64,000 nucleotides of DNA, from positions 1,054,001-1,118,000 of the forward strand of contig NZ_LT629700.1 of the NCBI RefSeq assembly GCF_900103625.1. Direction: 5' to 3'. A model generated the notes under the pieces. It did not search any database, was not told the DNA's origin, and worked only from the letters and a program-made list of their open reading frames with translations. This DNA comes from Corynebacterium mycetoides (GTDB taxonomy: Bacteria > Actinomycetota > Actinomycetes > Mycobacteriales > Mycobacteriaceae). Shown here piece after piece: positions 1 through 30,353 of this stretch (position 1 is the first letter of the stretch; each line of letters opens with the position of its first letter). The translations under genes were made by a program, and so were the position numbers.

Positions 1-1301
1 TCACCCGGGTTCGGCCAGCCCACCCAACCCGCGAGCCGGCGCGCGTACTCCGTCTGGAGCACCGGGTCCGTAATCTCCGCCACCACCGGAACGGTGCGCC
101 GCAGCGCCTGCAACCGGCCCTCGGCGGTGTCCAGGGAGTACGCGCTCAGCAGGGACTGCAGGACGAACTCGTACATGGGCACGCGGCTGGCCACCAGATC
201 CCGCACCGCGGCATCTCCCCTGGCCAGGCGCAGGTCGCACGGGTCCATCCCCTCCGGGGCCACGGACACGAAGCTCTGGCCCGTGAACGCCTGGTCCCCC
301 TCGAACGCGCGCATCGCGGCCTTCTGGCCCGCCTCGTCGCCGTCGAAGGTGTAAATCAGCTCGCCGCGGAAGTAGCTGTCATCCAGCATCAGCCGCCGGA
401 TGACCGCCATGTGATCCTTGCCGAACGCCGTCCCGCACGACGCCACCGCCGTCTTCACCCCGGCCGCGTGCATCGCCATTACATCCGTGTACCCCTCAAC
501 CACCACCGCCTGGTGGCCCTCCGCAATGTGCTTCTTCGCCAAATCCAAGCCGAAGAGCACCTTCGACTTGTGGTAGAGCAGCGTGTCCTGGGTATTCATG
601 TACTTACCCATCGGATCATCGTCGAACAATTTGCGCGCGCCGAAACCAATCACGTTGCCGGCGACGTCCTTGATCGGCCAAATCAGCCGGCGTCGGAATT
701 TGTCAATGGGGCCGCGCCGGCCAAGCGTCGATAAGCCTGCATCCTGCAACTCCTGCACATCAAACCCCTTGCGGAGCAGGTGCTTCGTCAACGTGTCCCA
801 CCCATCCGGCGCGTACCCGCACTCGAAGTGGTAGATCGTCTCCTTGTCGAAGCCGCGGTCCAGCAAGAACTGGCGGCCCACCTCCGCCGCCGGAGTCTCC
901 AGCTGCTCGCGGTAGAACTCGTGCGCCGCCTTATTCGCGGCCAAAAGCCGCGCCCGCGTGCCCGGCTTGACATCGCGCGCGCCCGTCGAACCACCCTGAT
1001 AATTGATGTGGTAGCCGATCTGCTCCGCCACCGCCTCCACGGCCTCCGGGAACGTCAGCTGCTCCATCTCCATCAGGAAGGAGAAAACGTCGCCGCCCTT
1101 GCCCGTGGAAAAACAGTGGTAGTAACCGCGCGCCGGGCGGACGTGGAACGACGGCGTCTTCTCATCCTTGAACGGGCTCAAACCCTTCAGCGAATCATGG
1201 CCGGCGGGCTTGAGCTGCACGTATTCGCCCACAATGTCCTCGATCGGGGCGCGCTCGCGGATAGCCTGAATGTCACTATCCGGAATCCTGCCCTTCGCCA
1301 T
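1..1301 (-). CDS. dnaG: DNA primase DnaG, copy 1 (partial, runs off the left edge)
   Basis: DnaG makes the RNA primers for chromosome replication at the fork. The minus-strand frame is open from the ATG at 1301 to the window edge, giving 433 codons without a stop. It starts MAKGRIPDSDI and carries the CHC2 zinc-binding region, the basic RRRGPIDKFRRR-type stretch and the TOPRIM motifs (VVEGYTDVMA, and TFDGDEAGQKA for the DxD). The protein aligns almost continuously with the complete dnaG at 28416-30353, with mostly conservative changes. At DNA level many third positions differ. The start matches that of the second copy. The C-terminal helicase-interaction domain lies outside the window, so I cannot tell whether this copy is complete. 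The divergent gene is an RNase, as in copy 2. Confidence 0.93.
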   Translation of the reverse strand, partial: MAKGRIPDSDIQAIRERAPIEDIVGEYVQLKPAGHDSLKGLSPFKDEKTPSFHVRPARGYYHCFSTGKGGDVFSFLMEMEQLTFPEAVEAVAEQIGYHINYQGGSTGARDVKPGTRARLLAANKAAHEFYREQLETPAAEVGRQFLLDRGFDKETIYHFECGYAPDGWDTLTKHLLRKGFDVQELQDAGLSTLGRRGPIDKFRRRLIWPIKDVAGNVIGFGARKLFDDDPMGKYMNTQDTLLYHKSKVLFGLDLAKKHIAEGHQAVVVEGYTDVMAMHAAGVKTAVASCGTAFGKDHMAVIRRLMLDDSYFRGELIYTFDGDEAGQKAAMRAFEGDQAFTGQSFVSVAPEGMDPCDLRLARGDAAVRDLVASRVPMYEFVLQSLLSAYSLDTAEGRLQALRRTVPVVAEITDPVLQTEYARRLAGWVGWPNPG

Positions 1302-1337
1302 GCGCTCATCATAGCCACGCGCGCGACATGTGCGACA

Positions 1338-1760
1338 ATGCTGCGCATGGGAGGAACGTCAGGGCTGAACAACCGCTACCTCGGGGTGCTGCTCATCGGG
1401 CTCGTCGGGGCGTCGCTAAGCCTGTTCGGGTACCGGAACTACGCGGAAGGCGGGCCCACCGGCGTCCCCTTCTGCGCGCCCTCTGACGTTCCCGCGCAGG
1501 CCTGGGACACCATCGAGCTTGTCGAACAGGACGGGCCCTACCTCCACCCGGAAACCGACGACAAGCGATTCGGCAACTACGAGGGCGTGCTCCCCGACGA
1601 GGAACTCGGCTACTACCGCGAATACACCGTGGAGACGCCCGGGCTGGGGCACCGCGGCGAACGGCGCATCGTCACCGGCGGGGGCGACGACGGGGAAGTC
1701 GACGAATGGTACTACACCGGCGACCACTACGAAAGCTTCTGCGAGGTCCCCGGCGTGTAA
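1338..1760 (+). CDS. Membrane-anchored or secreted guanyl-specific RNase, RNase Sa/T1 family (no adjacent inhibitor)
   Basis: This predicted 140-residue protein has one N-terminal hydrophobic segment (about residues 14-31), which is a signal or anchor, followed by a microbial ribonuclease domain. The catalytic triad of RNase Sa is recognisable: Glu95 in YREYTVETPG, Arg110 in ERRIVTGG and His130 in YTGDHYESF. Cys46 and Cys135 sit where the RNase Sa disulfide lies. Such enzymes cleave RNA 3' of guanosine. It is divergent from dnaG copy 1 with a 36-bp gap. A close paralogue at 30396-30839 is followed by a barstar gene; here nothing barstar-like follows. The start is uncertain: ATG 1338 and ATG 1347 are both possible, and neither has a clear ribosome-binding site. 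Confidence 0.85.
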   Translation: MLRMGGTSGLNNRYLGVLLIGLVGASLSLFGYRNYAEGGPTGVPFCAPSDVPAQAWDTIELVEQDGPYLHPETDDKRFGNYEGVLPDEELGYYREYTVETPGLGHRGERRIVTGGGDDGEVDEWYYTGDHYESFCEVPGV

Positions 1761-1787: not shown

Positions 1788-1838
1788 GGCTCTCGTCTAT
1801 GGCGCCCGGCTCCTGTCTTCGTGTGCGAGAGTGCCCGC

Positions 1839-2723
1839 ATGGGGGATTTCATGTACGCGTCGGAACTCGTTCGGGCGGCTCGCGCGATGGACGCCGAGCG
1901 GCTGGGCCACGACCACATCCGGCTGGCGGGGGACTACTTCTACCCGCTCGAACAATTCGCGCGCCTGCGCACATACGAGCAGCAGCGCCTCGTGGTGCTC
2001 GCCGCCGGGCTGCGTGCGCGCAAAGCCGTCCTGACCGGGAAATCCGCCGCCCGACTCCTCGGCGGCTGGGCGATGCTCACCGAGCAGCCGGAACCCGTCG
2101 AACTGGCCCTGTGCTCGCGCACCGCACCGCCGCGGTCCAAGACTCCCGTGGGCACCGTGTACCGCCGGGTGCCCCTTCGCGACGACGAAATCCTCGACGC
2201 TTACGGAGCACGATGCACCACCCCGCTGCGGACCACCTTCGATGTCGCCGCGCGTCACGGATTCCGCGAAGGGCTCGTCTGCGCCGACTGGGCGTTGTCG
2301 CAGGCGGGCGTGCGGCTCGCTGACATGCACCGCGAACTCTCCTGTTCCCGTCGCTTCGTTGGAATCGGAACTGTGCGCCGCGTACTAGAGCACGCCACCG
2401 GGATGTCGGAGTCGCCCTACGAAAGCTGGTTCCGCGCTGTGCTCATTGAGCGCCGGATTCCTTTCACGTTCCAGCCCAGCATCGGCAAGTTTCGCCCCGA
2501 CTTCCTTATCAAAGACCTGGTGGCGGTGGAAATCGACGGCAACTCCAAATACGCCGGGCGCGCCGAGGAGGAGCTGCTGCGCGAGAAACGCCGGCAGGAC
2601 GCGCTGACCAACATGGGATTCGTCTTCGCCCGGTTCTCGCCGCTGGAGATTGTGCGTGAGGACGAAAGGGTGATCCGGACGATTCTGCAGTTGGTGGAGA
2701 ACCGTGGGCGGCCGCTTGGGTAG
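1839..2723 (+). CDS. AbiEi-like / DUF559 (PD-(D/E)XK nuclease-fold) protein
   Basis: This 294-residue protein has two parts. The first (about residues 10-185) resembles the AbiEi type of transcriptional-regulator or antitoxin-like protein, with RKAVLTGKSAARLLGG and PLRTTFDVA. The second (about 190-290) resembles DUF559/Vsr-like endonuclease domains, with Glu195 (SPYESWFR), Asp221 (RPDFLI), Glu231-x-Asp233 (VEIDG) and Lys237. That residue set is compatible with an active PD-(D/E)XK site. Such proteins are common and scattered in actinobacteria; their true role is unproven. I chose ATG 1839; ATG 1851, preceded by a G-rich stretch, is an alternative. A relative with a degraded nuclease half occupies the matching place at 31325-32275. 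Confidence 0.7.
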   Translation: MGDFMYASELVRAARAMDAERLGHDHIRLAGDYFYPLEQFARLRTYEQQRLVVLAAGLRARKAVLTGKSAARLLGGWAMLTEQPEPVELALCSRTAPPRSKTPVGTVYRRVPLRDDEILDAYGARCTTPLRTTFDVAARHGFREGLVCADWALSQAGVRLADMHRELSCSRRFVGIGTVRRVLEHATGMSESPYESWFRAVLIERRIPFTFQPSIGKFRPDFLIKDLVAVEIDGNSKYAGRAEEELLREKRRQDALTNMGFVFARFSPLEIVREDERVIRTILQLVENRGRPLG

Positions 2724-3080
2724 GTGTTGGGGGTTTGAAGTGTCCTGGTGTTCGTGTTCTGGTGTGCGTGTTTGACCGGAACGGGTTTAGGAGGCCGGTT
2801 TCGGAGGGTCTTGCTGCTTCCGGTCGAACAGGGCGCCGTGTGCGGCGGTGCGTGTTCGACCGGAACTGGTTTGGGAGGACGTTTTCGGAGGCGCTGGCCG
2901 CTTCCGGTCGAACAGGGCGTGGCGTGGCGGCCGCGAGCGGGGGTGCGGCGGTGCGTGTTCGACCGGAACCGCTGCCAGGAGCCAGTTTCGGGGGCTGAAG
3001 CGTCCTGGTTTTCGTTCCGCTTATTGAACGCCCAACGGGTGGGGGCCCGACCCCTGGAAAGTGGACACAGGGAATTGAAC
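2724..3080. repeat. Imperfect tandem repeat array of 12-bp inverted repeats
   Basis: No convincing gene is present. About 84-bp units repeat around 2765-2845, 2848-2930 and a partial third at 2950-3000. Each full unit contains an inverted repeat whose arms are GTTYGACCGGAA and TTCCGGTCGAAC: 2770-2781 with 2818-2829, and 2854-2865 with 2902-2913. The third unit keeps only the left arm (2957-2968). The array is bracketed by similar sequences containing GTCCTGGT (about 2741-2748 and 3002-3009). From about 3050 the sequence becomes the end of the IS3-family remnant (GGAAAGTGGACAC). Confidence 0.75.
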
Positions 3081-3328
3081 TTATGCGGTCAAGGTGAGTT
3101 TACCGCAGGTGCGGTTTTCGAACTCGAGGGGCGACAGATAATCGCACCATGAGTGTCTGCGCTTCTGGTTGTAGCGCACACACCACGCGAAGACGTCCCG
3201 TCTTGCGTGCAGCAGTGAGTCGAAGCATTTCCGGTTTTGCAGCACCTCGCGTTTCAATGTCGCGTTGAACGACTCCGCTAGCGCGTTGTCTGCGCTGGTT
3301 CCCACCGCTCCCATCGATTGGGTCACCA
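3081..3328 (-). pseudogene. IS3-family transposase, C-terminal remnant
   Basis: The minus-strand frame gives the end of an IS3-family integrase-core (rve) transposase: TQSMGAVGTSADNALAESF, then TLKREVLQ and YNQKRRHSW. The final catalytic Glu lies in the ALAESF stretch. The N-terminal two thirds, including OrfA and the first catalytic Asp residues, are missing. The frame is cut at 3328 by an IS256-family insertion and resumes for about 15 codons at 4769-4815. It cannot be an active transposase. The nearby GGAAAGTGGACAC at about 3055-3067 is probably one terminal repeat of the element. Confidence 0.85.
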
Positions 3329-4768
3329 GAGGGTGTCAGATGGTTTGTGTGTGAGGGATTCCCCTCACACACAAGGAGATGAACCAGAATGACTACCGTG
3401 GCACGACGAAACCCAGAGGACTCCGCAAAGATCAAAGCGATCGAGGAAAAGCTCCTCGCCAATCCTGAGATGGCGAAGCTGATCGACGAGCTCGGCACCT
3501 CCACCACGGATGCCAACGATCTCGTCCGGGGCCTGCTCCAGGCCTCGATCAACCGGGGCCTCAACGCCGAGATGGATGCCCACCTCGGCTACCAGCACGG
3601 CGACCGGAACAGCAAGGAAGCCGCTGGTCAGAACAATTCCCGTAACGGTTCCTACCCCAAGCGGGTCGATTCGAACTACGGACCGGTCGATGTCGCTGTT
3701 CCCCGGGACCGTGACGGATCCTTCCTGCCGACAATGGTGCCCAAAGGATCCCGCCGGCTGACCGACGTCGACGACATGATCATCAGTCTCTATGCCGGTG
3801 GCATGACCGTCCGAGACATCCAGCACCACATGGCCACCGCCATGGGCGTGGACATCTCCCATGAAACAATCTCCGCGATCACCGATGCGGTCCTCGAGGA
3901 GGTCATGATCTGGCAGAACCGCCAACTTGATGAGTTCTACCCCGTGGTCTTCCTCGATGCGTTACGGATCAAAGTCCGTGACGGGGGCCGGGTGGTCAAC
4001 AAATCCGCGTACCTGGCTATCGGGGTGGACATGGAGGGGATCAAACACATCCTGGGTATCTGGCTGGCTAAAGAGGAAGGAGCCTCGTTCTGGGCGCAGG
4101 TGTGTGCCAACCTCGCTACCCGCGGAGTGCACGATGTGTTCATCGTGTGCTGTGACGGGCTCAAGGGTCTGCCGGAGGCTGTGGAAGCCACCTGGCCGGA
4201 TTCGATGGTCCAGACCTGTGTCGTCCACCTGATCAGGGCAGCAAACCGGTGGGTGGCCTATGGAGATCGTAAGGCGGTGTCCGCCGAGTTGAAGAAGATC
4301 TACACCGCCCCCACCGAGCAAACCGCTCTGGCGGCGTTGACGGAGTTCGAGGCCTCCGAGCTGGGGGAAAAGTATCCGCAGTCAGTCAAGGTGTGGCGCG
4401 ATGCGTGGGACCGGTTCATCCCGTTCCTGGAGTTCCCACCGATGGCTAGGAAGGTGATCTACACCACGAACTCGATTGAGTCGATGAACAACGAGCTGCG
4501 TAAAGCCACCCGGAATCGGGTGCAGTTCACCAACGATGAGTCTGCGATCAAAACCTTGTGGTTGATGATCTGCAACATTGAGGACAAACGGGCCGCCAAG
4601 CGTGCTAAGCAGGGCAAACGGGTCGCGGCGACCAGCGGCCGGCTGATCGAGGGCAGTCGGGTGACGAACTGGAAGCAGGCCATCAACCAGATGTCTGTGG
4701 CTTACCCTGACCGCTTCGAGCCCTACCTCTAATAATCACGCCCCACACACAAACAACTTGACACCCTC
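3329..4768. mobile_element. IS256-family insertion sequence (element A), apparently intact
   Basis: The ends are inverted repeats starting GAGGGTGTCA. The left end reads GAGGGTGTCAGATGGTTTGT from 3329, and the complement of the right end (to 4768) reads GAGGGTGTCAAGTTGTTTGT. The flanks are GGTCACCA on the left and GGTCACCC on the right, a near-perfect 8-bp target duplication as expected for IS256. The element splits an IS3-family remnant whose reading frame continues on both sides, so the order of events is readable. Confidence 0.85.
3389..4732 (+). CDS. IS256-family transposase (element A)
   Basis: This full-length 447-residue mutator-type (IS256) transposase has the DDE catalytic core: VFLDALRIKVRDGGRV (first Asp), VCCDGLKGLPEAV (second Asp) and the C-terminal TTNSIESMNNELRK region (Glu). 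The signature zinc/helical C-terminal part follows. A strong ribosome-binding site (AAGGAG, about 11 bases before the ATG) precedes the start. The gene fills the element between the terminal repeats and appears undamaged, so it may be active. Confidence 0.95.
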   Translation: MTTVARRNPEDSAKIKAIEEKLLANPEMAKLIDELGTSTTDANDLVRGLLQASINRGLNAEMDAHLGYQHGDRNSKEAAGQNNSRNGSYPKRVDSNYGPVDVAVPRDRDGSFLPTMVPKGSRRLTDVDDMIISLYAGGMTVRDIQHHMATAMGVDISHETISAITDAVLEEVMIWQNRQLDEFYPVVFLDALRIKVRDGGRVVNKSAYLAIGVDMEGIKHILGIWLAKEEGASFWAQVCANLATRGVHDVFIVCCDGLKGLPEAVEATWPDSMVQTCVVHLIRAANRWVAYGDRKAVSAELKKIYTAPTEQTALAALTEFEASELGEKYPQSVKVWRDAWDRFIPFLEFPPMARKVIYTTNSIESMNNELRKATRNRVQFTNDESAIKTLWLMICNIEDKRAAKRAKQGKRVAATSGRLIEGSRVTNWKQAINQMSVAYPDRFEPYL

Positions 4769-4815
4769 GGTCACCCCTAGCATCGTGCATCGTGAGCTAA
4801 ATGCCTTCGAGGTGG
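4769..4815 (-). pseudogene. IS3-family transposase remnant, upstream fragment
   Basis: On the minus strand this reads approximately TSKAFSSRCTMLGV, which joins in frame to TQSMGAVGTSADN at 3328 when the IS256 element and one copy of the duplication are removed. SKAF followed by GVTQSMG is the usual order in IS3-family integrase cores. Similarity ends near the second IS256 element at 4820, which probably truncated the fragment. Confidence 0.65.
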
Positions 4816-4819
4816 TCAA

Positions 4820-6230
4820 GTCCCGTGTAGTGGTGTAGCCGTCTAGCTTTCGGCTCGGTATGTAGTTCGGGGTTGTGGTTAGGCGGTTAGCTGGTGATGG
4901 TCACCATGGTCGTCTCCTGTGGGGTGCATGAGTTGTTTGGTGTGTTCGAGTGCGGACAGTGACATGTAGCGTTTTTGCTGGATCCAATCGTCGTGTTGCT
5001 CGGCAAGAACCGCCCCGACAAGCCGGATGATGGATTCGCGGTTCGGGAAGATGCCCACGACATCGGTGCGCCGGCGGATTTCCCGGTTTAACCGCTCGGT
5101 GGGGTTGTTCGACCACACCTTCGTCCACACTGGTTTCGGCGCTGCGGTAAACGCCAACACCTCATCGAGTGATTCCTCTAGATAGGCAGCGACCTGCGGG
5201 AATTTCGGTTCCAACAGGTCAACTACCTCACGGGCTTGTCCCCAGGTGGATGCGGCATCGGGTTGCTGGAAGATTGTCTGGAACATCGCAGAGACCATCG
5301 GCCATTGTGTTTTCGGGACTTTCTCGTAGAGGTTCTTCGCGAAATGAGTGCGGCACCGCTGCCACGACGCATCAGGCAGCACTTCGGAGATAGCGTGCTG
5401 AATACCTTCATGGGCGTCACTGGTGACTAAGAAGACGCCGCGAAGCCCGCGGGCTTTTAGATCTTGGAAGAAGCCTTTCCACGACGCGTTGGATTCCGCG
5501 GTGGCGACATGCATGCCGAGCATTTCGCGGTACCCGTCGGCGTTGACCCCGGTGGCAAGCAGTACGGAGCATTTGACCACACGCCCGCCTTCACGGACTT
5601 TGATCGTCAACGCGTCACACGACAGGTAGGCGTACCCGCCGGGATCAAGCGGGCGGTTTTTGAAATCTGTGACCATCTCGTCGAGTTCTTCCGACATGCG
5701 CGAGACTTGAGATTTCGACATATTGACAATCCCAAGTGTTGCCACCAGGTCATTCATCCTGCGGGTGGAAACCCCTTTGAGGTAGCAGGTCGCGATCACA
5801 GTCGATAAGGCGCGCTCGGCCCGTGAGCGGCGCTCTAACAGCCAGTCCGGGAAGAACGCTCCGTGGCGCAGTTTCGGCACCGCCACATCGATCGTGCCCA
5901 CACGGGTATCAAGGTCGCGGTGACGGTACCCGTTGCGGTGGTTGACCCGCTCGGCAGAAGCGACACCATATTCAGCCCCGCAAACGGTGTCAGCTTGGGC
6001 GGAGAGGATCTGGTTGATAAACCCTTGCAGCATCTGCCGCATCAGATCCGGGGAGGCCTGTGCCAGCAGATCGTCCAGATAGGTTGCAGGGTCGATAGAA
6101 TGCGGAGCAGCGGTCATCGTCATGTGCCTTTCGGTGAGATGTGGTAGTTGAGTCGAAAGGTTACTGACGATGGCCGCCCCTATATCTGCCAGGGCCCACC
6201 ATCAGCAAGCGTTACACCACACTAAGGGAC
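4820..6230. mobile_element. IS256-family insertion sequence (element B)
   Basis: Imperfect terminal inverted repeats bound the element: GTCCCGTGTAGTGGTGTAG from 4820, and the complement of 6212-6230, which reads GTCCCTTAGTGTGGTGTAA. No matching 8-bp duplication is evident at the two flanks, so one side may have been rearranged by the adjacent insertions. The element is distinct from element A. Confidence 0.8.
4879..6123 (-). CDS. IS256-family transposase (element B)
   Basis: This complete 414-residue mutator-family transposase is only distantly related to that of element A. The DDE core is visible: LSCDALTIKVREGGRV, LVTSDAHEGIQHAI and the WSNNPTERLNREIRRR region. The N-terminal part carries the family pattern NHRNGYRHRDLDTRVGTI. 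Start at 6123 (MTMTAAP) or two codons later. AAAGG lies 3 bases before the first ATG and 9 before the second, favouring the second. No frameshift is seen, so it may be active. Confidence 0.95.
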   Translation of the reverse strand: MTMTAAPHSIDPATYLDDLLAQASPDLMRQMLQGFINQILSAQADTVCGAEYGVASAERVNHRNGYRHRDLDTRVGTIDVAVPKLRHGAFFPDWLLERRSRAERALSTVIATCYLKGVSTRRMNDLVATLGIVNMSKSQVSRMSEELDEMVTDFKNRPLDPGGYAYLSCDALTIKVREGGRVVKCSVLLATGVNADGYREMLGMHVATAESNASWKGFFQDLKARGLRGVFLVTSDAHEGIQHAISEVLPDASWQRCRTHFAKNLYEKVPKTQWPMVSAMFQTIFQQPDAASTWGQAREVVDLLEPKFPQVAAYLEESLDEVLAFTAAPKPVWTKVWSNNPTERLNREIRRRTDVVGIFPNRESIIRLVGAVLAEQHDDWIQQKRYMSLSALEHTKQLMHPTGDDHGDHHQLTA

Positions 6231-6245
6231 ACTGATAATGGGAGT

Positions 6246-6345
6246 GCGGGACAAGAACCATCCGGAATGACCCACTAACGGACTGGCCACAATCTGATTG
6301 TGTGCTTTCGTTGCGATCTGTCTTCCGGGCTGGTTCTCGCCCCGC
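6246..6345 (+). ncRNA. Candidate IS110 bridge RNA region
   Basis: The region upstream of the transposase folds on paper. GCGGG-ACA-AGAACC (6246-6259) pairs with GGTTCT-CGC-CCCGC (6332-6345), eleven pairs around a 3x3 internal loop. An inner perfect hairpin is CACAATC-T-GATTGTG (6288-6302). IS110-group elements encode a bridge RNA in this 5' non-coding end that guides target and donor choice. That this stretch is such an RNA is inference from position and structure; the exact ends and the promoter are not known. Confidence 0.45.
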
Positions 6346-6507
6346 ACCGCGATCCGGCGATTCGGTCATGACCTCATAGGAGCGTGACCTCTCACCGTGA
6401 GCACCCCGGCAGGTGCCATAGTAGTAGTCCCATCAGTGTCCTGTCTGCTCGAACCCTCGGATCAGCGGCTACCTTCATCACTTCCCTATGCGAAAGCGTT
6501 GACAGCC

Positions 6508-7737
6508 ATGACCACAGACATCGACCTCTCCGCAAGCCCCGTCGCCGGGGTCGACACCCACACCGACACCCACACCGTTGCCGCGGTGACCCCAACCGGC
6601 CGGCACCTGGCCACCGAAACCTTCCCCACCACCAGGCCCGGCTACACACACCTCGCCGAGTTCCTCAGCAAGCACGGTGTCGGCGCCGTCGGAGTAGAAG
6701 GAACCAACTCCTTCGGTGCCGGATTAACCCGGCACCTCATAGACCGTGGCTACACGGTCGTTGAAGTCCTGCGCCCGGCCCGCAGCATTCGACGCCGGGA
6801 CGGGAAATCAGATCCGGTGGATGCCCTTGCCGCCGCGCGACAGGTCCTGACCGGGGAAGGGCTGAGCACGCCTAAAGATTCCACGGGCCCGGTGGAGTCG
6901 TTACGAGCGTTACAGATCACCCGGAAACAGCTGGTGTCCACCACCGCGAAACTCATCACAACGATGAAGTCGTTGCTGGTCACAGCCCCTGATGACATCC
7001 GCACCCGCTACGCCACGATGACCAACCACGCTCTGGTCAACGCGTTGGTGTACTGCCGACCGTCGTCGGATGTTACTGATCCGCGAAATGGTGTGCTGAC
7101 CAGCCTGAAGATTCTGGCCACGACCTACCGCGCATTGCGGGTGCAGTGCGATGAGCTGGAAACCCGGATCGCTGCCCTGGTGTCAGTGATCAATCCCCAT
7201 GTCAGCAACATCGTGGGATGTGGGGCTCTTGTTTCCGCTGATCTGCTGATCAGCATCGGCGATAATCCGGAGCGCATCCACTCCGAAGCAGCGCTGGCGC
7301 ACTTATGTGGAGTGGCTCCACTGCCGGCAAGCTCTGGGCGAACCAACCGGCACCGGCTCAATCGTGGTGGTGACCGGCGGGCGAACTCAGCGTTGTACCG
7401 AATCGCTATGGTGAGGATGAAGTGTGACCAGCGCACCAGGGAGTACGTCGCCCGGCGTACCGAGGAGGGGTTGTCGAAAAGGGAGATTATTCGCTGCCTG
7501 AAGCGCGCGATCGTCCGGGAGATCTACCGGGTCATATGCACCAGGCGCAGTACGTCACAGCCCAGGGATCTTCGTCGGGATGAGTTGAAAGAACTGCGTA
7601 TCGCGAAGCATCTCACCCAGGTGGTTGTAGCGAAGCATTTGGGGTGTGCCCCGGCGAGGATCAGTGACATCGAGACTGGAAAACGCCCGTTGACGGAATT
7701 AGCATCGGCCTACGAAAAATTTCTGAAAAGCGCTTGA
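6508..7737 (+). CDS. IS110-family DEDD transposase with C-terminal helix-turn-helix
   Basis: This 409-residue recombinase has the N-terminal RuvC-like DEDD domain (VAGVDTHTDTHTVAAV near residues 14-29; EGTNSFG; DGKSDPVDALAA). The C-terminal Tnp2 domain carries the serine region (GVAPLPASSGRTNRHRLNRGGDRRANSAL). After the usual family end comes an extra segment of about 50 residues, LRRDELKELRIAKHLTQ to LTELASAYEKF. This looks like an XRE-type helix-turn-helix (LTQVVVAKHLGCAPARISDIE). The start is ATG 6508 (MTTDIDL). An in-frame upstream reading to 6397 exists but would run through the probable regulatory stretch. Confidence 0.9.
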   Translation: MTTDIDLSASPVAGVDTHTDTHTVAAVTPTGRHLATETFPTTRPGYTHLAEFLSKHGVGAVGVEGTNSFGAGLTRHLIDRGYTVVEVLRPARSIRRRDGKSDPVDALAAARQVLTGEGLSTPKDSTGPVESLRALQITRKQLVSTTAKLITTMKSLLVTAPDDIRTRYATMTNHALVNALVYCRPSSDVTDPRNGVLTSLKILATTYRALRVQCDELETRIAALVSVINPHVSNIVGCGALVSADLLISIGDNPERIHSEAALAHLCGVAPLPASSGRTNRHRLNRGGDRRANSALYRIAMVRMKCDQRTREYVARRTEEGLSKREIIRCLKRAIVREIYRVICTRRSTSQPRDLRRDELKELRIAKHLTQVVVAKHLGCAPARISDIETGKRPLTELASAYEKFLKSA

Positions 7738-7841
7738 CACAATATAGGAGCATCGCAACCCTCCGCGGAGGCCGGCCTGCCGGAGGCCCGCAACATTCTG
7801 CCGGCACTGTCTTCGCAGTAGAGCCCCTTCGCTTATCGACG

Positions 7842-8449: not shown

Positions 8450-8459
8450 GGCTTCAAGC

Positions 8460-9787: not shown

Positions 9788-10093
9788 AGAGCGTTAGTGT
9801 ATGCGATTGGGTCCCGTCACCAACTGATAAAGAAGCAATAACCTAGCAAACTAACAGCTTAAGGATGAAGGAAGGACGCGTCCCACGGCTTCAATTCCCG
9901 CTACCAATCGGGGGATTCGAAAGCATTAAGTACCGTAATGCGACAATCAGAGGACTCGGCTGGGACCGACATCGCCATCCTGTTAAACCTACATTCACCG
10001 TTCTTAGATAAAATGAGCTAAAGATCGCTCGGGCGGAGGCAACTCCCAGTCTCTACACACCGTAGCTCCACTCTCTAACGAAAGGTGCTAAAA
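9788..10093. other. Intergenic divergent promoter region (galU / heparinase-like gene)
   Basis: I see no coding sequence in these roughly 300 bases. TAAAAT at 10009-10014 could be a -10 box for the rightward gene; no good -35 was found. AAAGG at 10081-10085 is the ribosome-binding site for the gene starting at 10094. From here the DNA becomes visibly richer in A and T than to the left. Confidence 0.4.
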
Positions 10094-12319: not shown

Positions 12320-12375
12320 GCACAAGCCCTCGCCACTCCCGCATCGGGAATGCCGGCGTAGCTAACTTTCGGTGA

Positions 12376-13002: not shown

Positions 13003-13044
13003 CTCTTAATAAACTCCTTTCCCGATCTACACGTCATCCGTCAC

Positions 13045-14994: not shown

Positions 14995-15032
14995 GTCTAC
15001 AGCCTCCTTAAGTCGCGCAATTACCTTGGAGA

Positions 15033-17531: not shown

Positions 17532-17722
17532 CTAATAGACCTTTCACCAATCGTCAGTGCCCACTTCGGCGGGTGCCAAACCTTAATACTAGCTGCGTCA
17601 AGAGTACTACAAGTTCCGCACTAGTTTGCACCAGAGAGGACTACCCTCGGGTTGTCTAGCTGCCGACCGGGCGATGAGAACGATTATCCACCAACTTTCA
17701 GTTTGGCGGTCTCCTTGAGCAA

Positions 17723-20310: not shown

Positions 20311-20315
20311 GAAAA

Positions 20316-21605: not shown

Positions 21606-21717
21606 CTATTCGAGAATCCACCTTGCTGCAACTGCAGGGTTCGTGGTGTGCAAGCGGGTTTCATGCTGGAGCGCTAGCGGGGAAGCTAATCGGCACTTCT
21701 ACGGAAACTGTACTCTA

Positions 21718-22977: not shown

Positions 22978-23069
22978 TGCTAGCGCTGGGTCCTTCCTCA
23001 TAGCCTGGCCAAAGTCTCAATCATCCTTGAGAGTTAAAAGCTAGTTAACTCAAACTCTCATCGATGTTA

Positions 23070-24245
23070 CTAGCTTATCCTTGATGAGGACACTAAAGGA
23101 TCGAACTCGGCCACCCGCTTGCCTACACCCATTAACTCGGCGATTGCGGCTACTGCTCTCTCGGTAGCTTTGCCGTCACCGTATGGATTGACCGCGTTCG
23201 CCATCGAAGCGTAAACAGCAGGCTTGTCGAGAAGATTCGATGTTTCTGCCACGATCAATCCCCGATTTGTCCCTACCAACTTCACCGTCCCAGCTACTAC
23301 TGCTTCCGGCCGTTCGGTATTGTCCCTCAACACTAAGACGGGTTTGCCAAGCGATGGCGCTTCTTCCTGCACTCCTCCCGAATCAGTGAGAACCAAGTAG
23401 GAACGGTTCATCAGTGCGGTGAACTGGTCATACGGTAGCGGATCCGAGATGACGACATTCGGCAAGTGCTCAACTTCGGGGAGTACATTATCCCTTACCG
23501 CCGGGTTCAAATGAAGAGGAAGAACGAACACTACGTCTGGGTAGTTTTGTGCTAGATCCTTCACCGCCCCGCCAATGCCTCGCATAGCCTCAAGGTTTTC
23601 CCTGCGATGTGTAGTGATAAGGACTACGCGTTCGTCGGTGCCCAAGAGCTCACTCAACCGAGCGTCCGAGAATTCGACATCCCAAACCGTCGAAACTTTC
23701 AAAGAATCAATGACGGTATTCCCCGTTACCACTATATCCTTGGATCTAATGTTCTCGCGACGCAGATTCTCCCGCGAATCCTTGGTTGGAGCCAAGTGCA
23801 AACTGGATACCTGGCCAATTATTTTTCGGTTAGCTTCCTCGGGAAAAGGAGAGAGAATGTTCCCAGTCCGAAGACCGGCTTCAAGATGAACGATCTTGAC
23901 ACCTCGGTTGAAACCCGCAAGGGCCGCCACCATAGCTGTAGTTGTGTCACCCTGGGCTATGATCACGTCGGGCCGCTCAGCCTCTATGATCTCGTCTAAC
24001 CCTTCTGCCGCTCGGGCTATGAGCTGGTTCAAGGATTGTCCCGGTTTCATTAGATCTAGGTCGAAATCAGGGACAATATTGAAACGCCGATTAACCTGCT
24101 CTAGCATCTCTTTGTGCTGGCCGGTCGAGACAACCACAGAACTAAAACGCTCATCTTGTTGAAGAGCAGAGATGACGGGAGCGACCTTAATCGCCTCCGG
24201 CCGCGTACCGTAGACGGTCATTACTTTGGGTTTCACGGACTCCAT
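23070..24245 (-). CDS. wecB: UDP-N-acetylglucosamine 2-epimerase
   Basis: WecB converts UDP-GlcNAc to UDP-ManNAc. Family motifs are all present: VMTVYGTRPEAIKVAPVI, VVSTGQHKEML, DVIIAQGDTTT, HLEAGLRTGN, PEEANRKIIGQVSSLHLAPT, TTHRRENL, LPLHLNPAV, DSGGVQEEAPSLGKPVLVLRD and ERPEA. I chose ATG 24245 because AAGGGAG lies 5 bases upstream; an ATG nine codons earlier lacks this. With wecC it would supply UDP-ManNAcA to the island's glycosyltransferases. Confidence 0.95.
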   Translation of the reverse strand: MESVKPKVMTVYGTRPEAIKVAPVISALQQDERFSSVVVSTGQHKEMLEQVNRRFNIVPDFDLDLMKPGQSLNQLIARAAEGLDEIIEAERPDVIIAQGDTTTAMVAALAGFNRGVKIVHLEAGLRTGNILSPFPEEANRKIIGQVSSLHLAPTKDSRENLRRENIRSKDIVVTGNTVIDSLKVSTVWDVEFSDARLSELLGTDERVVLITTHRRENLEAMRGIGGAVKDLAQNYPDVVFVLPLHLNPAVRDNVLPEVEHLPNVVISDPLPYDQFTALMNRSYLVLTDSGGVQEEAPSLGKPVLVLRDNTERPEAVVAGTVKLVGTNRGLIVAETSNLLDKPAVYASMANAVNPYGDGKATERAVAAIAELMGVGKRVAEFDPLVSSSRIS

Positions 24246-24353
24246 ACGGACTCCCTTATCGTCGTGCGCCATAGCGATCCTTGTTTTTTACACTCATCTC
24301 GGCGGGACCTTTACAGGACCGAAACTACATTGTGAACTAGCGAGTGCTGCTGC

Positions 24354-25496
24354 TTAAAACGCATAGTACCCCGTCAAAATCTCCCGAATCTTACTCACAG
24401 ACTCGTAATCTCGACTAGAATACCATCCTAAGCCACCACGCCGTAATCCATCCTCTAACGGACCGCGGAGTGCATCCGGATACTGCTCGTAGAAACGAGG
24501 ATCCGTTTTAAACATGAAATCGAAATCACCTGCCGAAAGTTGGGAGCTAATTTCAGTAGGCACCCCCGAAACTAGCGCCTCAGCCTGCTCAGTCCGGCCG
24601 TACGCAAACAAAAGCAACGCAGTCAGGTCAACGGCAAAATTCTGACCAAATTTGTAATGCACTTTCTGGGAAGTCGGCAGCGGAGGGGCATCGATGCCGA
24701 AACCGAAAATGTCATCAACAAGTTGAGCCAGCGCAATTTTCCGGAAGTACTTCTCTTCTCCGGGACTTGCAAGAGACAATAAAGATTTTGATAAAAGGTC
24801 CGGATTGTGCCGAAGCACAAGGAGGACAGTCCCAACTTCCGAAATACCTGCCACTGGGGCGACACTCTCGTACCCCGCGAGCTTGAAAGGTGGGAACGTG
24901 TGGGCAGCAGAAGCTGGAGCGTTTAACCTCAGCTGCGAAGCTTCCAGAATCGACCCGAAGGCAAAGTAGGGCGATTCGAAGCAATTTGCTAGTAGCAAAG
25001 GACCAATTCCCATAAAGGACCAACTATTCGAGCGCAATCCCGTGGTCACAATATTTGTTTCAATGATCCTTGTGTCGAATTGCTGAAAGAAATTCCGTTC
25101 TCGGGAGAACCGCCCCCCAAAATCCAGAGAGACGAGCTCACAGTCTCCCAACAGGAACTTTGAGGCCAGAGAGTCGAGCCCCCCACTGAAATTGAGAACT
25201 GCATTTGATCCGTCTTTTTTGTTGGGGATGAAATCCAGGCTTCCGGAAGCTTGTACATCGGAACCCGTCCACTCAGCGATTCCCGATACGACACTACTGC
25301 TCACTGGGAAGCCAAAGTCAATTCGATCGAAGCGCGTGCCACATAAAGTGCTCAGAGCAATGGCGAGACTGTCCTCCTCTAGCGGAATCACCTCATCAAA
25401 AACAAAGTTTAATTTTTCTTCACTGCCATCGGTTCCCACCGAGATACTTAGGTGGGTACCATTCCATCGCTCAGGTTGAAACGAAATATGGTTCAT
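24354..25496 (-). CDS. PP-loop ATPase-like protein of the polysaccharide cluster
   Basis: This 380-residue protein carries the PP-loop signature SGGLDS at about residues 104-109 (VLNFSGGLDSLAS), preceded by a beta-rich N-terminal module. A conserved helical stretch follows (SLASPGEEKYFRKIALAQLV). PP-loop enzymes adenylate a carbonyl, carboxylate or amide before adding nitrogen or sulfur, as in QueC and asparagine synthetase B. The placement between wecB and the exporter suggests modification of a sugar, for instance amidation of an uronic acid; this is inference. The ATG at 25496 was chosen over the in-frame TTG at 25505. Confidence 0.75.
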   Translation of the reverse strand: MNHISFQPERWNGTHLSISVGTDGSEEKLNFVFDEVIPLEEDSLAIALSTLCGTRFDRIDFGFPVSSSVVSGIAEWTGSDVQASGSLDFIPNKKDGSNAVLNFSGGLDSLASKFLLGDCELVSLDFGGRFSRERNFFQQFDTRIIETNIVTTGLRSNSWSFMGIGPLLLANCFESPYFAFGSILEASQLRLNAPASAAHTFPPFKLAGYESVAPVAGISEVGTVLLVLRHNPDLLSKSLLSLASPGEEKYFRKIALAQLVDDIFGFGIDAPPLPTSQKVHYKFGQNFAVDLTALLLFAYGRTEQAEALVSGVPTEISSQLSAGDFDFMFKTDPRFYEQYPDALRGPLEDGLRRGGLGWYSSRDYESVSKIREILTGYYAF

Positions 25497-25510
25497 AATG
25501 ACCAAGCCTT

Positions 25511-26347
25511 TTAACTCGAGAAGGTTATCTGGGGGCGGATGTAGTCAGCTCTGATATTTTCGATGTACCCCGCATCCCTTCCGGACTTCACCAATCCAGT
25601 CCACTCTTGGTAGAGCGAGACAATCTCGTCTGAAGATCCATCAGCGATGATTTCGCCGCGATGAACCCACACTGCTCGAGCACAGTTACTCAGAACCTGC
25701 TCCGCCGAGTGAGAAACCAAGAATAGATTTCCCGCATCCTCGAGCAGCTTCGACATGCGCTCACTCGCTTTCTCCGCAAACGCTGCATCACCAGTCGAAA
25801 GGGCTTCATCGACCAACAGAATTTCCGGTTTAACGGCCGTCGAGATAGCGAAGCTCAATCTTGCGCCCTGCCCAGCCGAGTAAGTTTTCAGAGGCCTCTC
25901 GATAGCATCACCGATATCTGCCCAGTTCGAAATATCAGGTTCAAGTTCTTCAGCCTCTGCCCTAGTCATACCAAGCGCTAGACAACCTAGAATTACATTC
26001 TGCCGACCAGTCAAGTAAGGCTGTAGAGCAGGAGAAACTCCAAGCAGCATAGGTTGGGACTTTACAAGCACTTCACCCCGCGTTGCCGTTTCTGACCCAG
26101 CTATAAGTTTTAGGAGGGTGGACTTACCAGAGCCATTTCGCCCGATCACACCGATAGATTCACCCCTCACCGCCACCAAATTCGTGGGCTTTAAAGAATG
26201 AACATAGCGCGGACGTTTCCCCCCGGACTTGCCTCCTGCATCAATTGATTTGCTATCCGTCACGGCATAGATTTTCGTTGCTTCTCGTAGAACTACAGCT
26301 GGATCTTCGACGAACTCAGATCCACCATCCTTAGAATGCCTTGGCAT
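25511..26347 (-). CDS. Polysaccharide ABC exporter, ATP-binding subunit (Wzt/TagH-type)
   Basis: This 278-residue ATPase has Walker A (IGRNGSGKSTLLKL), a Q-loop region (MLLGVSPALQPYLTGRQNV), a signature that deviates from LSGGQ (KTYSAGQGARLSFAI, as is usual in Wzt/TagH), Walker B (ILLVDEALSTGDAAF) and the switch His (LFLVSHSAEQVL). It lacks a large C-terminal substrate-binding domain, so it resembles TagH or the Wzt form used for lipid-linked glycans without chain-end recognition. It overlaps the permease gene by 17 bases. GGAGGG lies 12 bases before its ATG. Confidence 0.92.
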   Translation of the reverse strand: MPRHSKDGGSEFVEDPAVVLREATKIYAVTDSKSIDAGGKSGGKRPRYVHSLKPTNLVAVRGESIGVIGRNGSGKSTLLKLIAGSETATRGEVLVKSQPMLLGVSPALQPYLTGRQNVILGCLALGMTRAEAEELEPDISNWADIGDAIERPLKTYSAGQGARLSFAISTAVKPEILLVDEALSTGDAAFAEKASERMSKLLEDAGNLFLVSHSAEQVLSNCARAVWVHRGEIIADGSSDEIVSLYQEWTGLVKSGRDAGYIENIRADYIRPQITFSS

Positions 26348-27230
26348 AGCGGGGTTCAGCCCTCCAAAAATAGAAAAATCCGAAAGTTAGGGTGCCGAGC
26401 GACCAAGCTAAGAGAATGCCCCAGTCCCGTAGGCTCATCGGATTTGCGTACATTGCTACCTCACGAAACCCCTGAATGAACCGATAAGCCGGATTAGAGG
26501 TGAAAATACTGTAGACGACCGGGTTATCCGCATAGACCTCTACCGAGTAGAAAATGCCTGACGCGAACATCCACCCGCGAGCGAACAATTCGAGCAATAC
26601 CCTGGTGTCCGGCAAGAGCGCTGTAAGTCTTGCCGAAATGAACATTAGTCCGACGCAAAACCCCATAGTAAGGAGATAAAGGGGAACCACTAACAGCAAG
26701 CTCCAAGAGGGAACGAAGGGGATTTGAAACGCTAAAGCCGCAACGATAGCGACCACCATCGCGGGAAACGTGTCATATATATAACGGAGTGAGTTCGAGA
26801 GCACTATCGCGGCGCGAGGGAAAGCGAAAGTCTGGATCATGCTCTTGTTCGCTTCTAGTAGACCGATGCCACCCATGAGCATACGACTGATGGTGCTGAA
26901 GACGGTCATACCAATGATGACGAAACCGACGAAGTTGTCCACCCCTCGATTCGTCCTCAATAGCAGACCGAAAATCGCACCGTAGAGGAGAGCCTCAAGC
27001 ACTGGGCTGGCCACCAGCCAAAAGCGCCACCAATTGTAGTTTCGGGTTGTTCTGAACGCCTTGGCCCGTGCGTCCGCCTTGATGAAATCATCTCGGCGCA
27101 CTAGCTCGCGCATGTAGCTGCCAAAGCCGAGGTTCTGGCGCACTGTCCGAAGTCCTTCACGTCGAACCGTCATAGAAGGCACGGTGACTTCATCAGGTCT
27201 CGGATCTTGTGAATCCGATAACTGAGACAT
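26331..27230 (-). CDS. Polysaccharide ABC exporter, ABC-2 permease subunit (Wzm/TagG-type)
   Basis: This 299-residue permease has six likely membrane helices in the ABC-2 pattern: a first pair around ASPVLEALLYGAIFGLLL and NFVGFVIIGMTVFSTI, then FPAMVVAIVAALAFQIPF, LLLVVPLYLLTMGFCVGLMF, a segment GWMFASGIFYSVEVY, and a final helix LLAWSLGTLTFGFFYFW. It is preceded by a cytoplasmic N-terminus (DFIKADARAKAFRTTRNYNWWRFW). With the ATPase downstream it would export a lipid-linked glycan across the cytoplasmic membrane. It is the first gene of the minus-strand export unit. Confidence 0.9.
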   Translation of the reverse strand: MSQLSDSQDPRPDEVTVPSMTVRREGLRTVRQNLGFGSYMRELVRRDDFIKADARAKAFRTTRNYNWWRFWLVASPVLEALLYGAIFGLLLRTNRGVDNFVGFVIIGMTVFSTISRMLMGGIGLLEANKSMIQTFAFPRAAIVLSNSLRYIYDTFPAMVVAIVAALAFQIPFVPSWSLLLVVPLYLLTMGFCVGLMFISARLTALLPDTRVLLELFARGWMFASGIFYSVEVYADNPVVYSIFTSNPAYRFIQGFREVAMYANPMSLRDWGILLAWSLGTLTFGFFYFWRAEPRYAKAF

Positions 27231-27375: not shown

Positions 27376-28002
27376 CTAGTCCCTGATTGTCGATCGCTCC
27401 CGCTTCTTCCCCTCCGCCCACAACCGGTCTTGTACATCGCCTGGGACGGTGCCGGTGCTGCCGTCGAAAAGGTACGGCGCGCGGTTTTTCAGCTTATCGA
27501 CGAAAGCCTGCGCCACATCAGCGAACGTGAACGCCCCGCGCTGGTCGGCGATCTCAGCATGGAAAAGGACCTGGAGGAGGAGATCGGACAGCTCCTTCTT
27601 CAGCTCGGCGTCGTCTTGGCGGGTGCGCACGGCCTCCGCGAACTCGGCCGACTCCTGCTCGAGGTAGGTGAGCAAACTCTCGTGGGTCTGCGCCCTCTCC
27701 CACTCGCCGCGGCTGCGGGCGACGTGCATCACGCGCTGGGCTTCGTTGATGGGGTCGTGGCGGGATGTGACCTCGATAAGAGGCTCTCCCCTGCTCAGCC
27801 GCTTGCGCACCGCCGGGTCGCCCGGATCGGTGGTGACCAGCCAGCCCTGGCCGGTGGCGTCCTCGCCGCGGACAAGGTCACCAAAGTTCCAGCGGGCCGA
27901 CACCGGCACCTCATCTGTGAAAGCGATGGGGCCCTCCACGCGGATGGCAACGTTGATAGGCACCATGTCCGGCCACCGCGGATCCAAAACCAGAACGCTC
28001 AT
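27376..28002 (-). CDS. mazG: MazG-type nucleoside triphosphate pyrophosphohydrolase
   Basis: MazG hydrolyses (d)NTPs to the monophosphates and pyrophosphate, cleaning the nucleotide pool. The 208-residue protein has a corynebacterial-type N-terminal extension (about 1-70). The MazG helical domain follows, with the Mg2+-binding pattern EQESAEFAEAV and ELSDLLLQVLFHAEIA and the closing KLKNRAPYLFDG. It lies between the exporter genes (145-base gap, no gene seen) and dnaG copy 2. Base composition is high-GC again, so the island ends before it. Confidence 0.9.
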   Translation of the reverse strand: MSVLVLDPRWPDMVPINVAIRVEGPIAFTDEVPVSARWNFGDLVRGEDATGQGWLVTTDPGDPAVRKRLSRGEPLIEVTSRHDPINEAQRVMHVARSRGEWERAQTHESLLTYLEQESAEFAEAVRTRQDDAELKKELSDLLLQVLFHAEIADQRGAFTFADVAQAFVDKLKNRAPYLFDGSTGTVPGDVQDRLWAEGKKRERSTIRD

Positions 28003-28399: not shown

Positions 28400-28415
28400 T
28401 TCGGTTCCAAGAGAA

Positions 28416-30353
28416 CTAGCTGCCCCTGAACGCCCTCTCGTTAAGTTCCCGCCGCGCCTGCTCCAGCGCTACCAGGTCCGAGAAGAGCGCGTTGTACGCC
28501 ATCTCGTCGTCGCTGGGGCGCATGCGCTGAAGCTGCGATTTCAGCTGCGCGATCTGGTTGCCCACGCGGACTTCCTGGAGGCGGGAGAGCACCGAATCGG
28601 CGTAGGAGGCGGGATCTGCGGCGTGGATCTCCTCGACGGCGAGCTCGGACACGAAGTTGCGGCCGGTGTCGTCGAGCATCTCGGCGCTGACGGCCGCGAT
28701 CCAGGCCGTGCCGTTGGAGGAGTTGGCGACTGCGCCGCCGGCCTTCGTCATTGCCTCGCGGACGGCGGAGTAGGCGGGGTGGGTGAAGGCGTCCGGGTTG
28801 ATGCCGTCGAAGTAACTGCCGGCCACCGCCGGGTACTGGAGGGCGACTTTGAGGGCTTCGCGTTGGGCCCAGAGGCGGGGGTCGTCGGGCGAGGGGGGCT
28901 GGAAGGCGGGGGCGCCCACACCAGAGCCGCCCGAGCCGGAGCCGGCGGAACCAACAGAAGAACCAGCGGCACCGGCCGCCTGCTCCCAGGCGGAACGCCG
29001 GCGCCCACCAGCCGAGGGATTCTTCGCCTCCTGCCGCACCTGCCGGATTACTTCGTTCGGGTCCGGCCACCCGACCCAACCGGCGAGCTGCCGGGCGTAC
29101 TCGGTCTGCAATGGGGTGTCTTTGATTTGGGCGACGACGGGGACGGTGCGTCGTAAAGCTTGCAGGCACCCCTCGGGGGTGTCCAGCGAGTAGTCCTTCA
29201 GCAGGGACTCGATGACGAACTCGAACATGGGGACGCGGGAGGCGACGAGGTCGCGGACGGCGGCGTCGCCGCGTGCCATGCGCAGATCGCACGGGTCCAT
29301 GCCGTCCGGGGCGACGGAGACAAAAGACTGGCCGGTGAACTGCTGGTCGCCTTCGAAGGCGCGCATCGCGGCTTTCTGCCCTGCTTCGTCGCCGTCGAAG
29401 GTGTAGATCAGCTCGCCGCGGAAGTAGTTGTCGTCCAGCATGAGACGACGGATGATGCTCATGTGGTCCTTGCCGAAGGCAGTGCCGCACGCAGCCACAG
29501 CTGTTTTCACGCCGGCGGCGTGCATGGCCATGACGTCGGTGTAGCCCTCCACCACCACGCACTGGTGGCCGTCGGCGATATTCTTCTTCGCCAGATCGAG
29601 GCCGAAGAGCACCTTGGACTTGTGGTACAGCATCGTGTCCTGGGTGTTCATGTACTTGCCCATCGGATCATCGTCGAAGAGCTTCCGGGCGCCGAAACCG
29701 ATCACGTTGCCGGCGACATCCTTGATCGGCCACAGCAGACGGCGGCGGAACTTGTCGATGGGACCGCGCCGCCCCATTGTCGACAGCCCCGCATCGACAA
29801 GCTCCTGGACGTCGAAGCCTTTGCGCAGCAGGTGCTTCGTCAGTGTGTCCCAGCCTTCGGGGGCGTAGCCGCACTCGAAGTGGTGGATGATGTCGCGGTC
29901 GAAGCCGCGGTCGAGCAGGAACCGGCGGCCCACTTCCGCTTCAGGCTGCTCGAGCTTGGCGCGGTAGAACTCGTGCGCGGCTTTATTCGCCGCAATGAGG
30001 CGGGCGCGGGTGCCGGGCTTCACGTCGCGGGCGCCCGTGGATCCGCCCTGGTAGTTGATGTGGTAGCCGATTTCCTCCGCGACGGCCTCGACCGCCTCGG
30101 GGAAGCTCAGCTGCTCCATCTCCATCATGAAGGAGAAGACGTCGCCGCCTTTGCCCGTGGAGAAGCAGTGGTAGTACCCGCGGACCGGACGCACGTGGAA
30201 TGACGGCGTCTTCTCGTCCTTGAACGGGCTCAGCCCCTTCAAGGAGTCGTGCCCGGCGGGCTTGAGCTGAACGTACTCGCCCACGATGTCGGCGATATTG
30301 GCGCGCTCGCGGATAGCCTCGATGTCACTATCCGGAATTCTGCCCCTAGCCAT
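28416..30353 (-). CDS. dnaG: DNA primase DnaG, copy 2 (complete)
   Basis: This complete primase has 645 residues. The CHC2 zinc-binding domain is at the N-terminus (PFHVRP-like core with HCFSTGKGGDVFSF). The catalytic core and TOPRIM follow (VVEGYTDVMAMHAAG; TFDGDEAGQKAAMRAF). A Gly/Ser-rich linker (about 470-500) leads to the C-terminal DnaB-interaction domain. The start MARGRIPDSD at 30353 matches copy 1; a longer start (ATG 30362) is possible. It lies beside dgt and the conserved housekeeping block, which suggests that this is the resident primase. The RNase/barstar pair is divergent, 42 bp away. Confidence 0.96.
   Translation of the reverse strand: MARGRIPDSDIEAIRERANIADIVGEYVQLKPAGHDSLKGLSPFKDEKTPSFHVRPVRGYYHCFSTGKGGDVFSFMMEMEQLSFPEAVEAVAEEIGYHINYQGGSTGARDVKPGTRARLIAANKAAHEFYRAKLEQPEAEVGRRFLLDRGFDRDIIHHFECGYAPEGWDTLTKHLLRKGFDVQELVDAGLSTMGRRGPIDKFRRRLLWPIKDVAGNVIGFGARKLFDDDPMGKYMNTQDTMLYHKSKVLFGLDLAKKNIADGHQCVVVEGYTDVMAMHAAGVKTAVAACGTAFGKDHMSIIRRLMLDDNYFRGELIYTFDGDEAGQKAAMRAFEGDQQFTGQSFVSVAPDGMDPCDLRMARGDAAVRDLVASRVPMFEFVIESLLKDYSLDTPEGCLQALRRTVPVVAQIKDTPLQTEYARQLAGWVGWPDPNEVIRQVRQEAKNPSAGGRRRSAWEQAAGAAGSSVGSAGSGSGGSGVGAPAFQPPSPDDPRLWAQREALKVALQYPAVAGSYFDGINPDAFTHPAYSAVREAMTKAGGAVANSSNGTAWIAAVSAEMLDDTGRNFVSELAVEEIHAADPASYADSVLSRLQEVRVGNQIAQLKSQLQRMRPSDDEMAYNALFSDLVALEQARRELNERAFRGS

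Follow-up and report, generated by a model that had tools for sequence, protein, structure and literature searches.

Here we describe a 64,000-nucleotide stretch of the Corynebacterium mycetoides chromosome (the window; GCF_900103625.1, NZ_LT629700.1, positions 1,054,001-1,118,000; genome code G000) that holds two intact genes for the replicative primase DnaG, set in sequence of mosaic ancestry. The first copy lies in a block of host type and the second in a block that resembles a different group of Corynebacterium; the return to host sequence falls inside dgt, and a pile of insertion sequences (IS) stands at the opposite edge. Very probably, a segment of donor chromosome was imported with a homologous crossover in dgt at its right end and a join on the IS side at its left, while the native block was kept—leaving two xenologous primases in one cell. 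The segment also carries a surface polysaccharide cluster, and it was probably the import of this locus that carried the housekeeping flank along, doubling the primase instead of replacing it. Throughout, host clade refers to genomes G140/G146/G095, and donor clade to the G009/G171 type (also G059 and G229).

Two primase genes of different ancestry

Both dnaG genes lie where a first-pass annotation of the window had placed them (Table 1), and both are complete. Copy 1 is cut by the window edge alone; in the genome it occupies G000:C1:1053415-1055301 and encodes 628 amino acids (aa) without an internal stop. Leftward extension, which the annotation had proposed as a check for a full C-terminal domain, recovers both DnaB-binding domains. 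In both proteins the zinc ribbon, the catalytic core (DNAG_N/Toprim), and both DnaB-binding domains score above the Pfam cut-offs, and both pass the cut-off of TIGR01391 (dnaG). Among 248 columns without variation in 36 relatives, copy 1 has no change and copy 2 has one (R396C); the linker is longer in copy 2. The copies share 80% aa identity over 645 aligned columns and 77% nucleotide identity, with nonsynonymous and synonymous divergences (dN and dS) of 0.14 and about 1.0—a distance that rules out one locus assembled twice, as the annotation had argued.

Table 1. Features of the window discussed in the text; native and imported are assigned from sequence affinity, percentages are identities, and positions are those of the window unless prefixed by a contig.
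Feature	Position	Strand	Basis or remark
dnaG copy 1 (native), 5' part	1..1301	-	nearest G140, 89-90%; continues beyond the window edge to G000:C1:1053415
RNase Sa-type gene 1 (native)	1338..1760	+	PF00545; 89% vs syntenic G140 gene; start taken to be ATG 1338
DUF559/MTES_1575-type gene 1 (native)	1821..2723	+	PF04480 above cut-off; 60% vs syntenic G140 gene
IS pile at left join	2995..7756		ends set by 91-100% copies elsewhere in genome
IS3-type remnant	3041-3327 + 4769-4813		split by Mutator-family element
Mutator-family (IS256-like) element	3329-4768		transposase family match
Second Mutator-family element	4814-6232		transposase family match
IS110-family element	6227-7756		transposase family match
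galU2, second UTP-glucose-1-phosphate uridylyltransferase-type gene	8855..9787	-	PF00483; G229 87%, G059 86%
Surface polysaccharide cluster	10085..27230		~17 kb; guanine-cytosine content 51% vs flanks 68%
ABC ATPase, Wzt-like	25511-26347		within cluster
Wzm-like permease	26331-27230		within cluster; weak match to galactan Wzm/RfbD, far under cut-off
mazG2 (imported)	27376..28002	-	PF03819; 76% G059, 68% G009, 65% aa vs mazG1
dnaG copy 2 (imported)	28416..30353	-	645 aa; residues 1-340 99% vs G009, residues 341-645 82%
RNase Sa-type gene 2 (imported)	30396..30839	+	PF00545; 100% aa (147/147) vs G009
DUF559-position gene (imported)	31325..32275	+	94% vs G009
dgt, hybrid, sole copy found in genome	32322..33593	-	frame intact
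Probable crossover interval in dgt	33250..33302		zero G009/G140-separating sites; donor-type run stops at 33249
TPM-domain gene (native), return to host sequence	33587..35665	+	84% G140 vs 57% G009; nucleotide profile

Genus-wide dnaG searches covered 242 Corynebacterium genomes, the window genome included, seven of which fall below the 90%/5% quality mark; Corynebacterium species are the closest named relatives of these genes. The dnaG tree has 34 rows, made up of 30 of the 241 other genomes, two named outgroups, and both copies (rows L086, L087, G022, and G099 were left out). The annotation had suggested such a tree to see whether the copies branch apart, and they do: copy 1 falls in a starred five-row set with G094, G140, G095, and G146 (support 99/96), and copy 2 in a starred 11-row set consisting of itself and ten donor-side rows, including G009, G171, and G059 (100/99). 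Holding both copies together as one clade is rejected (delta log-likelihood 129; approximately unbiased test, p-AU 0.00012). By these affinities, the two primases are xenologues and not duplicates made within the genome.

The genes around dnaG tell the same story of ancestry. Gene order was mapped by tblastn in 20 relatives, with some parts missing owing to the end of a fetched stretch or to gene absence; it typically runs eno - lyz-like - mazG - (OGG-like) - dnaG - RNase Sa - (DUF559) - dgt - TPM, the exceptions being an inverted mazG and OGG-like gene in G134, G135, and G161, and a dgt lying ~8 kb further away in G010. The annotation had held that a neighbourhood rather than a lone gene was doubled in the window, and the doubled set is even larger than it noted, with mazG included. 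Each dnaG is, as described, divergent from an RNase Sa-type gene with a PF00545 match. The claim that an AbiEi/DUF559-type gene follows each copy holds for copy 1; its positional equivalent beside copy 2 lacks any Pfam or NCBIfam match at E<=0.001, and over 119 aa it shares 34% identity with DUF559 gene 1.

The left flank is closest to G140, at 97% for eno, 77% for mazG1, 89% for both dnaG copy 1 and RNase Sa-1, and 60% for DUF559-1; across G140/G146/G095 identities are 97-95% for eno and 84-78% for TPM, and for lyz the nearest matches are in G095 and G146. DnaB, encoded 0.5 Mb away, also has its best match in G140 (91%, against 81-83% in the donor clade), and we therefore place the chromosome in the G140 clade. 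Measured against G009, RNase Sa-2 is 100% identical, and the DUF559-position gene and dgt are each 94% identical; dnaG copy 2 is closest to the donor clade, where G059 scores slightly higher than G009. Nucleotide identity to G009 between 29.4 and 33.25 kb averages ~95% (range 83-100% in 39 bins of 100 bp), and beyond ~33.5 kb the profile is host-like. These comparisons mark eno, mazG1, dnaG copy 1, RNase Sa-1, and DUF559-1 as native. Foreign, and of the G009/G171 type, are mazG2, dnaG copy 2, RNase Sa-2, the DUF559-position gene, and dgt over roughly three quarters of its length. The donor would have been other than G009 itself, because the 3' half of dnaG copy 2 and mazG2 match other clade members equally well or better.

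Between the two origins that the annotation had offered, an old duplication or transfer from a relative, these results side with transfer. A tandem or segmental duplication within the lineage, followed by divergence, would account for copies in the same orientation and for several doubled neighbours; however, the copies belong to different clades, separated by outside relatives, and the topology test above rejects their grouping, while RNase Sa-2 is identical to the G009 protein but 54% identical to RNase Sa-1. Moreover, a single dgt was found, and the OGG-like gene beside copy 1 is also single—the 413-bp gap between mazG2 and dnaG copy 2 is too short to hold one. We consider a duplication extremely improbable.

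The two joins of the probably imported segment

At the right join stands an in-frame hybrid dgt, without IS. In Dgt, residues 115-423 are of donor type, matching G009 at 99%; for residues 1-97 the nearest sequence is that of G140 (86%), and none of the top six matches belongs to the donor clade. Identity to G009 drops from 97% to 87% at 33.3 kb. Among sites that separate G009 from G140, those at 33100-33249 are donor-type in 32 of 33 cases and neither in one; those at 33500-33699 are host-type in 41 cases, donor-type in 13, and neither in nine. Read from this site pattern, the right edge is most likely a homologous crossover inside dgt, at 33249-33303, with an outer bound of ~33490. A switch of ancestry within a shared gene, the mark by which interspecies homologous import is recognized, is present in dgt.

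At the left edge lies the IS pile, each element of which has copies or close relatives elsewhere in the genome; for two of the labels in Table 1, IS3-type for the remnant and IS256-like for the Mutator-family element, we assume the names to apply. By eye, a repeat-rich 0.3 kb alone lies between DUF559-1 and dgt in the sister genome G140.

The annotation had warned of a chimeric contig joined at the insertion sequences, and the left join is indeed occupied by IS. If a G009-like contaminant was present, its contigs could have been misjoined on the left at IS that are repeated elsewhere in the genome, and on the right in or beside a conserved dgt stretch that does not vary between the clades. Such a chimera needs two independent misjoins, one of them yielding an intact in-frame hybrid dgt, and a genome search found no second dgt; in addition, the assembly is a single contig of 2.27 Mb (2,266,370 bases, completeness 99.96%, contamination 0.75%), and the donor-type segment differs from the sampled genomes with which it was compared. 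These points lower the worry without removing it, and an assembly chimera appears quite unlikely. A Campbell-type integration, in which a circular donor molecule would enter by one crossover and leave direct repeats flanking the insert, has in its favour the homologous blocks in direct orientation on both sides; a crossover in dgt, however, would also leave a reciprocal hybrid dgt beside DUF559-1, where IS are found instead, and with one dgt in the genome a later loss of the second would be required. We hold this to be very unlikely.

In the import that we favour, the recipient would have begun with the order common in its clade, eno - mazG - OGG-like - dnaG - RNase Sa - (DUF559) - dgt - TPM. 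Next, perhaps in a single event, a chromosomal piece would have entered from the G009/G171 group of Corynebacterium, bearing polysaccharide genes along with mazG2 - dnaG2 - RNase Sa-2 - DUF559-position gene - dgt. Its right end would have recombined homologously inside dgt, most likely where the clades show no difference, to give the hybrid gene; its left end may have been joined through or beside IS just downstream of the native DUF559-1, and IS-IS homologous recombination, transposition, and an illegitimate join would all be compatible with the outcome. Because this left end falls past the native mazG-dnaG-RNase Sa-DUF559 block, towards dgt, the block would have been kept, and the cell would have become merodiploid for it.

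Several observations weigh against this reading. A single interval overstates how sharp the crossover is, as sites at 33303-33499 are evenly mixed (12 host-type, 12 donor-type, and five neither); at the other end, the exact join is hidden by the IS pile, and for the small genes at 7.8-8.8 kb the compared regions of the relatives offer no match. Neither mazG2, the 3' half of dnaG copy 2, nor the polysaccharide genes are G009-like, and none of the sampled genomes was found to hold the imported segment end to end; the donor would therefore be one that was not sampled, or there were several donors or events. The closest matches to a cluster glycosyltransferase are only 47% identical (G061 and G062) and so point to no donor for the cluster. 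In the tree, the grouping of copy 1 with G140/G146/G095 has a support of 91/77 and is unstarred, and a strict clade of copy 2, G009, and G171 is absent from the best tree, yet unrejected (p-AU 0.156).

Three known systems offer partial parallels. In homology-facilitated illegitimate recombination, one end of the incoming DNA is joined by homologous recombination and the other illegitimately (PMC3240628); the one-sided homologous join is shared, but that work concerns small linear DNA, whereas here tens of kb are involved, IS stand at the second end, and recombination there may itself have been homologous between IS. Natural transformation in Streptococcus pneumoniae produces merodiploids, tandem duplications of the recipient's own chromosome (PMC3784515); as here, an essential gene can be present in two copies bordered by IS-derived repeats, although in C. 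mycetoides the second copy appears to come from another species. Finally, in pneumococcal serotype switching, long recombinations exchange the polysaccharide locus, some affecting the flanking pbp2x and pbp1a (PMC4380333). A polysaccharide locus and its flank in one long recombination are common to both cases; there the flanks are replaced, whereas here the flank, primase included, would have been added.

Some further observations concern the left edge. The IS110-family transposase frame (6397-7737) ends in a C-terminal helix-turn-helix domain (HTH_3), and a second pile with the IS3 remnant, both Mutator-family elements, and IS110, rearranged, lies at G000:C1:1567674-1571474 (L178). Between DUF559-1 and the pile, downstream of that gene at 2724-2994, short inverted repeat units of the type TTCGACCGGAAC / CTTCCGGTCGAAC are visible by eye, and similar stretches occur at C1:1776559 and C1:743993. 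Beyond the pile, two overlapping small frames at 7892-8843 have membrane or secretion features by eye; they gave no Pfam hit.

The polysaccharide cluster and its site beside dnaG

The inserted material, whose nature the annotation had missed, is a polysaccharide cluster, and in many genomes of Corynebacterium a homologue of one of its glycosyltransferases is found 3' of dnaG. The cluster contains a heparinase-II/III-like gene, a hexapeptide transferase, several glycosyltransferases, wecC, and wecB, in addition to the transporter genes in Table 1. Next to it lies galU2, presumably rightly so named, which is by its best matches of donor-clade type; a native galU-type gene, 81% identical, is located at C1:117775.

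Linkage to dnaG was surveyed in the same 242 genomes with the glycosyltransferase at 17723-19759 as query, counting matches of at least 420 bits and leaving weaker partial matches uncounted; positions were read by hand, and whole clusters were mapped in few genomes. Strong matches occur in 30 genomes besides that of the window (in G161 as two adjoining pieces). The homologue and dnaG share a contig in 25 of these, which can therefore be judged, and in 20 of the 25 they lie within 50 kb of each other by nearest ends (G061, G062, G153, G158, G135, G032, G156, G185, G150, G115, G069, G116, G097, G004, G209, G027, G036, G092, G173, and G037), on the 3' side of dnaG in 20/20. By chance, roughly 4% would be expected (100 kb out of 2.5 Mb). 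The distance exceeds 50 kb in G044, G121, G068, G142, and G063; the two genes are on different contigs in G075, G155, G161, and G050; and G048 has the glycosyltransferase match but no dnaG match. In the donor clade, G171 has a different cluster with wecB directly after mazG, and in G140 and G135 clusters lie beyond ppx, on the same side of dnaG. The window genome has one wecB; its sister G140 has a cluster beside ppx, and a wecB match is lacking in G146 and G095.

The 3' side of dnaG thus looks like a frequent site of polysaccharide genes in the genus, a layout that the imported segment shares, and as in a polysaccharide-locus switch, the incoming cluster occupies a site where the genus often keeps such genes. 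Selection for these polysaccharide genes may have been at work. A primase brought in by a plasmid, phage, or transposon would fit the IS at one end; copy 2, however, is an ordinary chromosomal dnaG in donor-clade gene order, and its segment ends in a homologous crossover in dgt, making a mobile element of this kind barely credible. The import of donor chromosome would instead mean that a normally single-copy replication gene was doubled by hitchhiking with surface polysaccharide genes: dnaG sits beside a variable locus and would share its recombinations, which would explain how the copies of two species came to stand in one genome. Corynebacterium surface polysaccharide loci may be exchanged at the 3' side of dnaG, and dnaG, mazG, and dgt could for that reason mislead species trees in the genus.

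Use and rarity of the doubled primase

The genome encodes one replicative DnaB; another, weak match to DnaB is one that we take to be RadA-like. Ratios of dN to dS are 0.08-0.10 for dnaG copy 1 against G140, G146, and G095, and 0.09-0.16 for copy 2 against G009, G171, and G229, with 0.03-0.05 for the donor pairs G009-G171 and G171-G229; both copies look to be under purifying selection. Both primases may be expressed and load on the single DnaB, and the genome offers a natural experiment on whether one DnaB can serve two DnaG alleles.

It is doubtful that two working primases of different species now serve one DnaB with the helicase-binding half of the imported one adapting to the foreign helicase or taking a separate role. 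This is hinted at, and no more than hinted at, by the dN/dS of the copy 2 C-terminal domain (0.13-0.17 against five donor-clade rows, among which the values are 0.05-0.13), by the longer linker, and by the one change at an invariant site. The same domain gives 0.08, 0.18, and 0.04 against G059, G112, and G186. The idea is weakened because an unsampled donor for the 3' half would explain the same numbers (dS is also raised there), and because pairs within the host clade span 0.08-0.18 in this domain. Gene conversion of the copy 2 C-terminal domain towards the host was considered and rejected; four of 13 copy-2-specific positions carry the host-clade residue, with no clear excess.

With copy 2 as query, dnaG matches were found in 241/242 genomes, and two complete copies in the window genome alone, in a survey where a second copy inside a draft-genome gap would escape detection. 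The search gave no match in G048 and partial ones alone in G154 and G204. More than one match was seen in 15/242 genomes, that of the window included; all 15 and two more were rechecked, and in the other 14 the extra match came from an alignment of a single gene broken into parts, from a fragment, from a partial and weakly scoring hit (G032), or from a distant primase (G199, 33%). When copy 1 served as query, 32/242 genomes had more than one match (three in the window genome); 20 of these fall outside the copy 2 list of 15, each with a single match to copy 2, and three of the 20 were looked at again (G053, G080, and G037, the last being one gene in two pieces).

The component processes are already known; among the literature matches listed, at the level of the start of abstracts, we met no description of a second dnaG, of xenologous primases, or of this neighbourhood, and no replicative primase doubled by such an import. 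The matches listed for Corynebacterium Wzm/Wzt likewise held nothing on this locus.

One genome, G187, was considered as a second case of a doubled dnaG and rejected: a short C-terminal fragment lies beside an intact gene, and we take this to be a local insertion accompanied by a partial repeat. The degenerate fragment and the intact dnaG are neighbours on contig C12 (889-1152 + 3063-5006; locus L171). By eye, the fragment resembles the C-terminus of the genome's own dnaG, and unrelated open reading frames, one of them ATPase-like, lie between the two; a piece of a Mutator-family IS ends the contig. The arrangement looks like an island inserted at the 3' end of dnaG.

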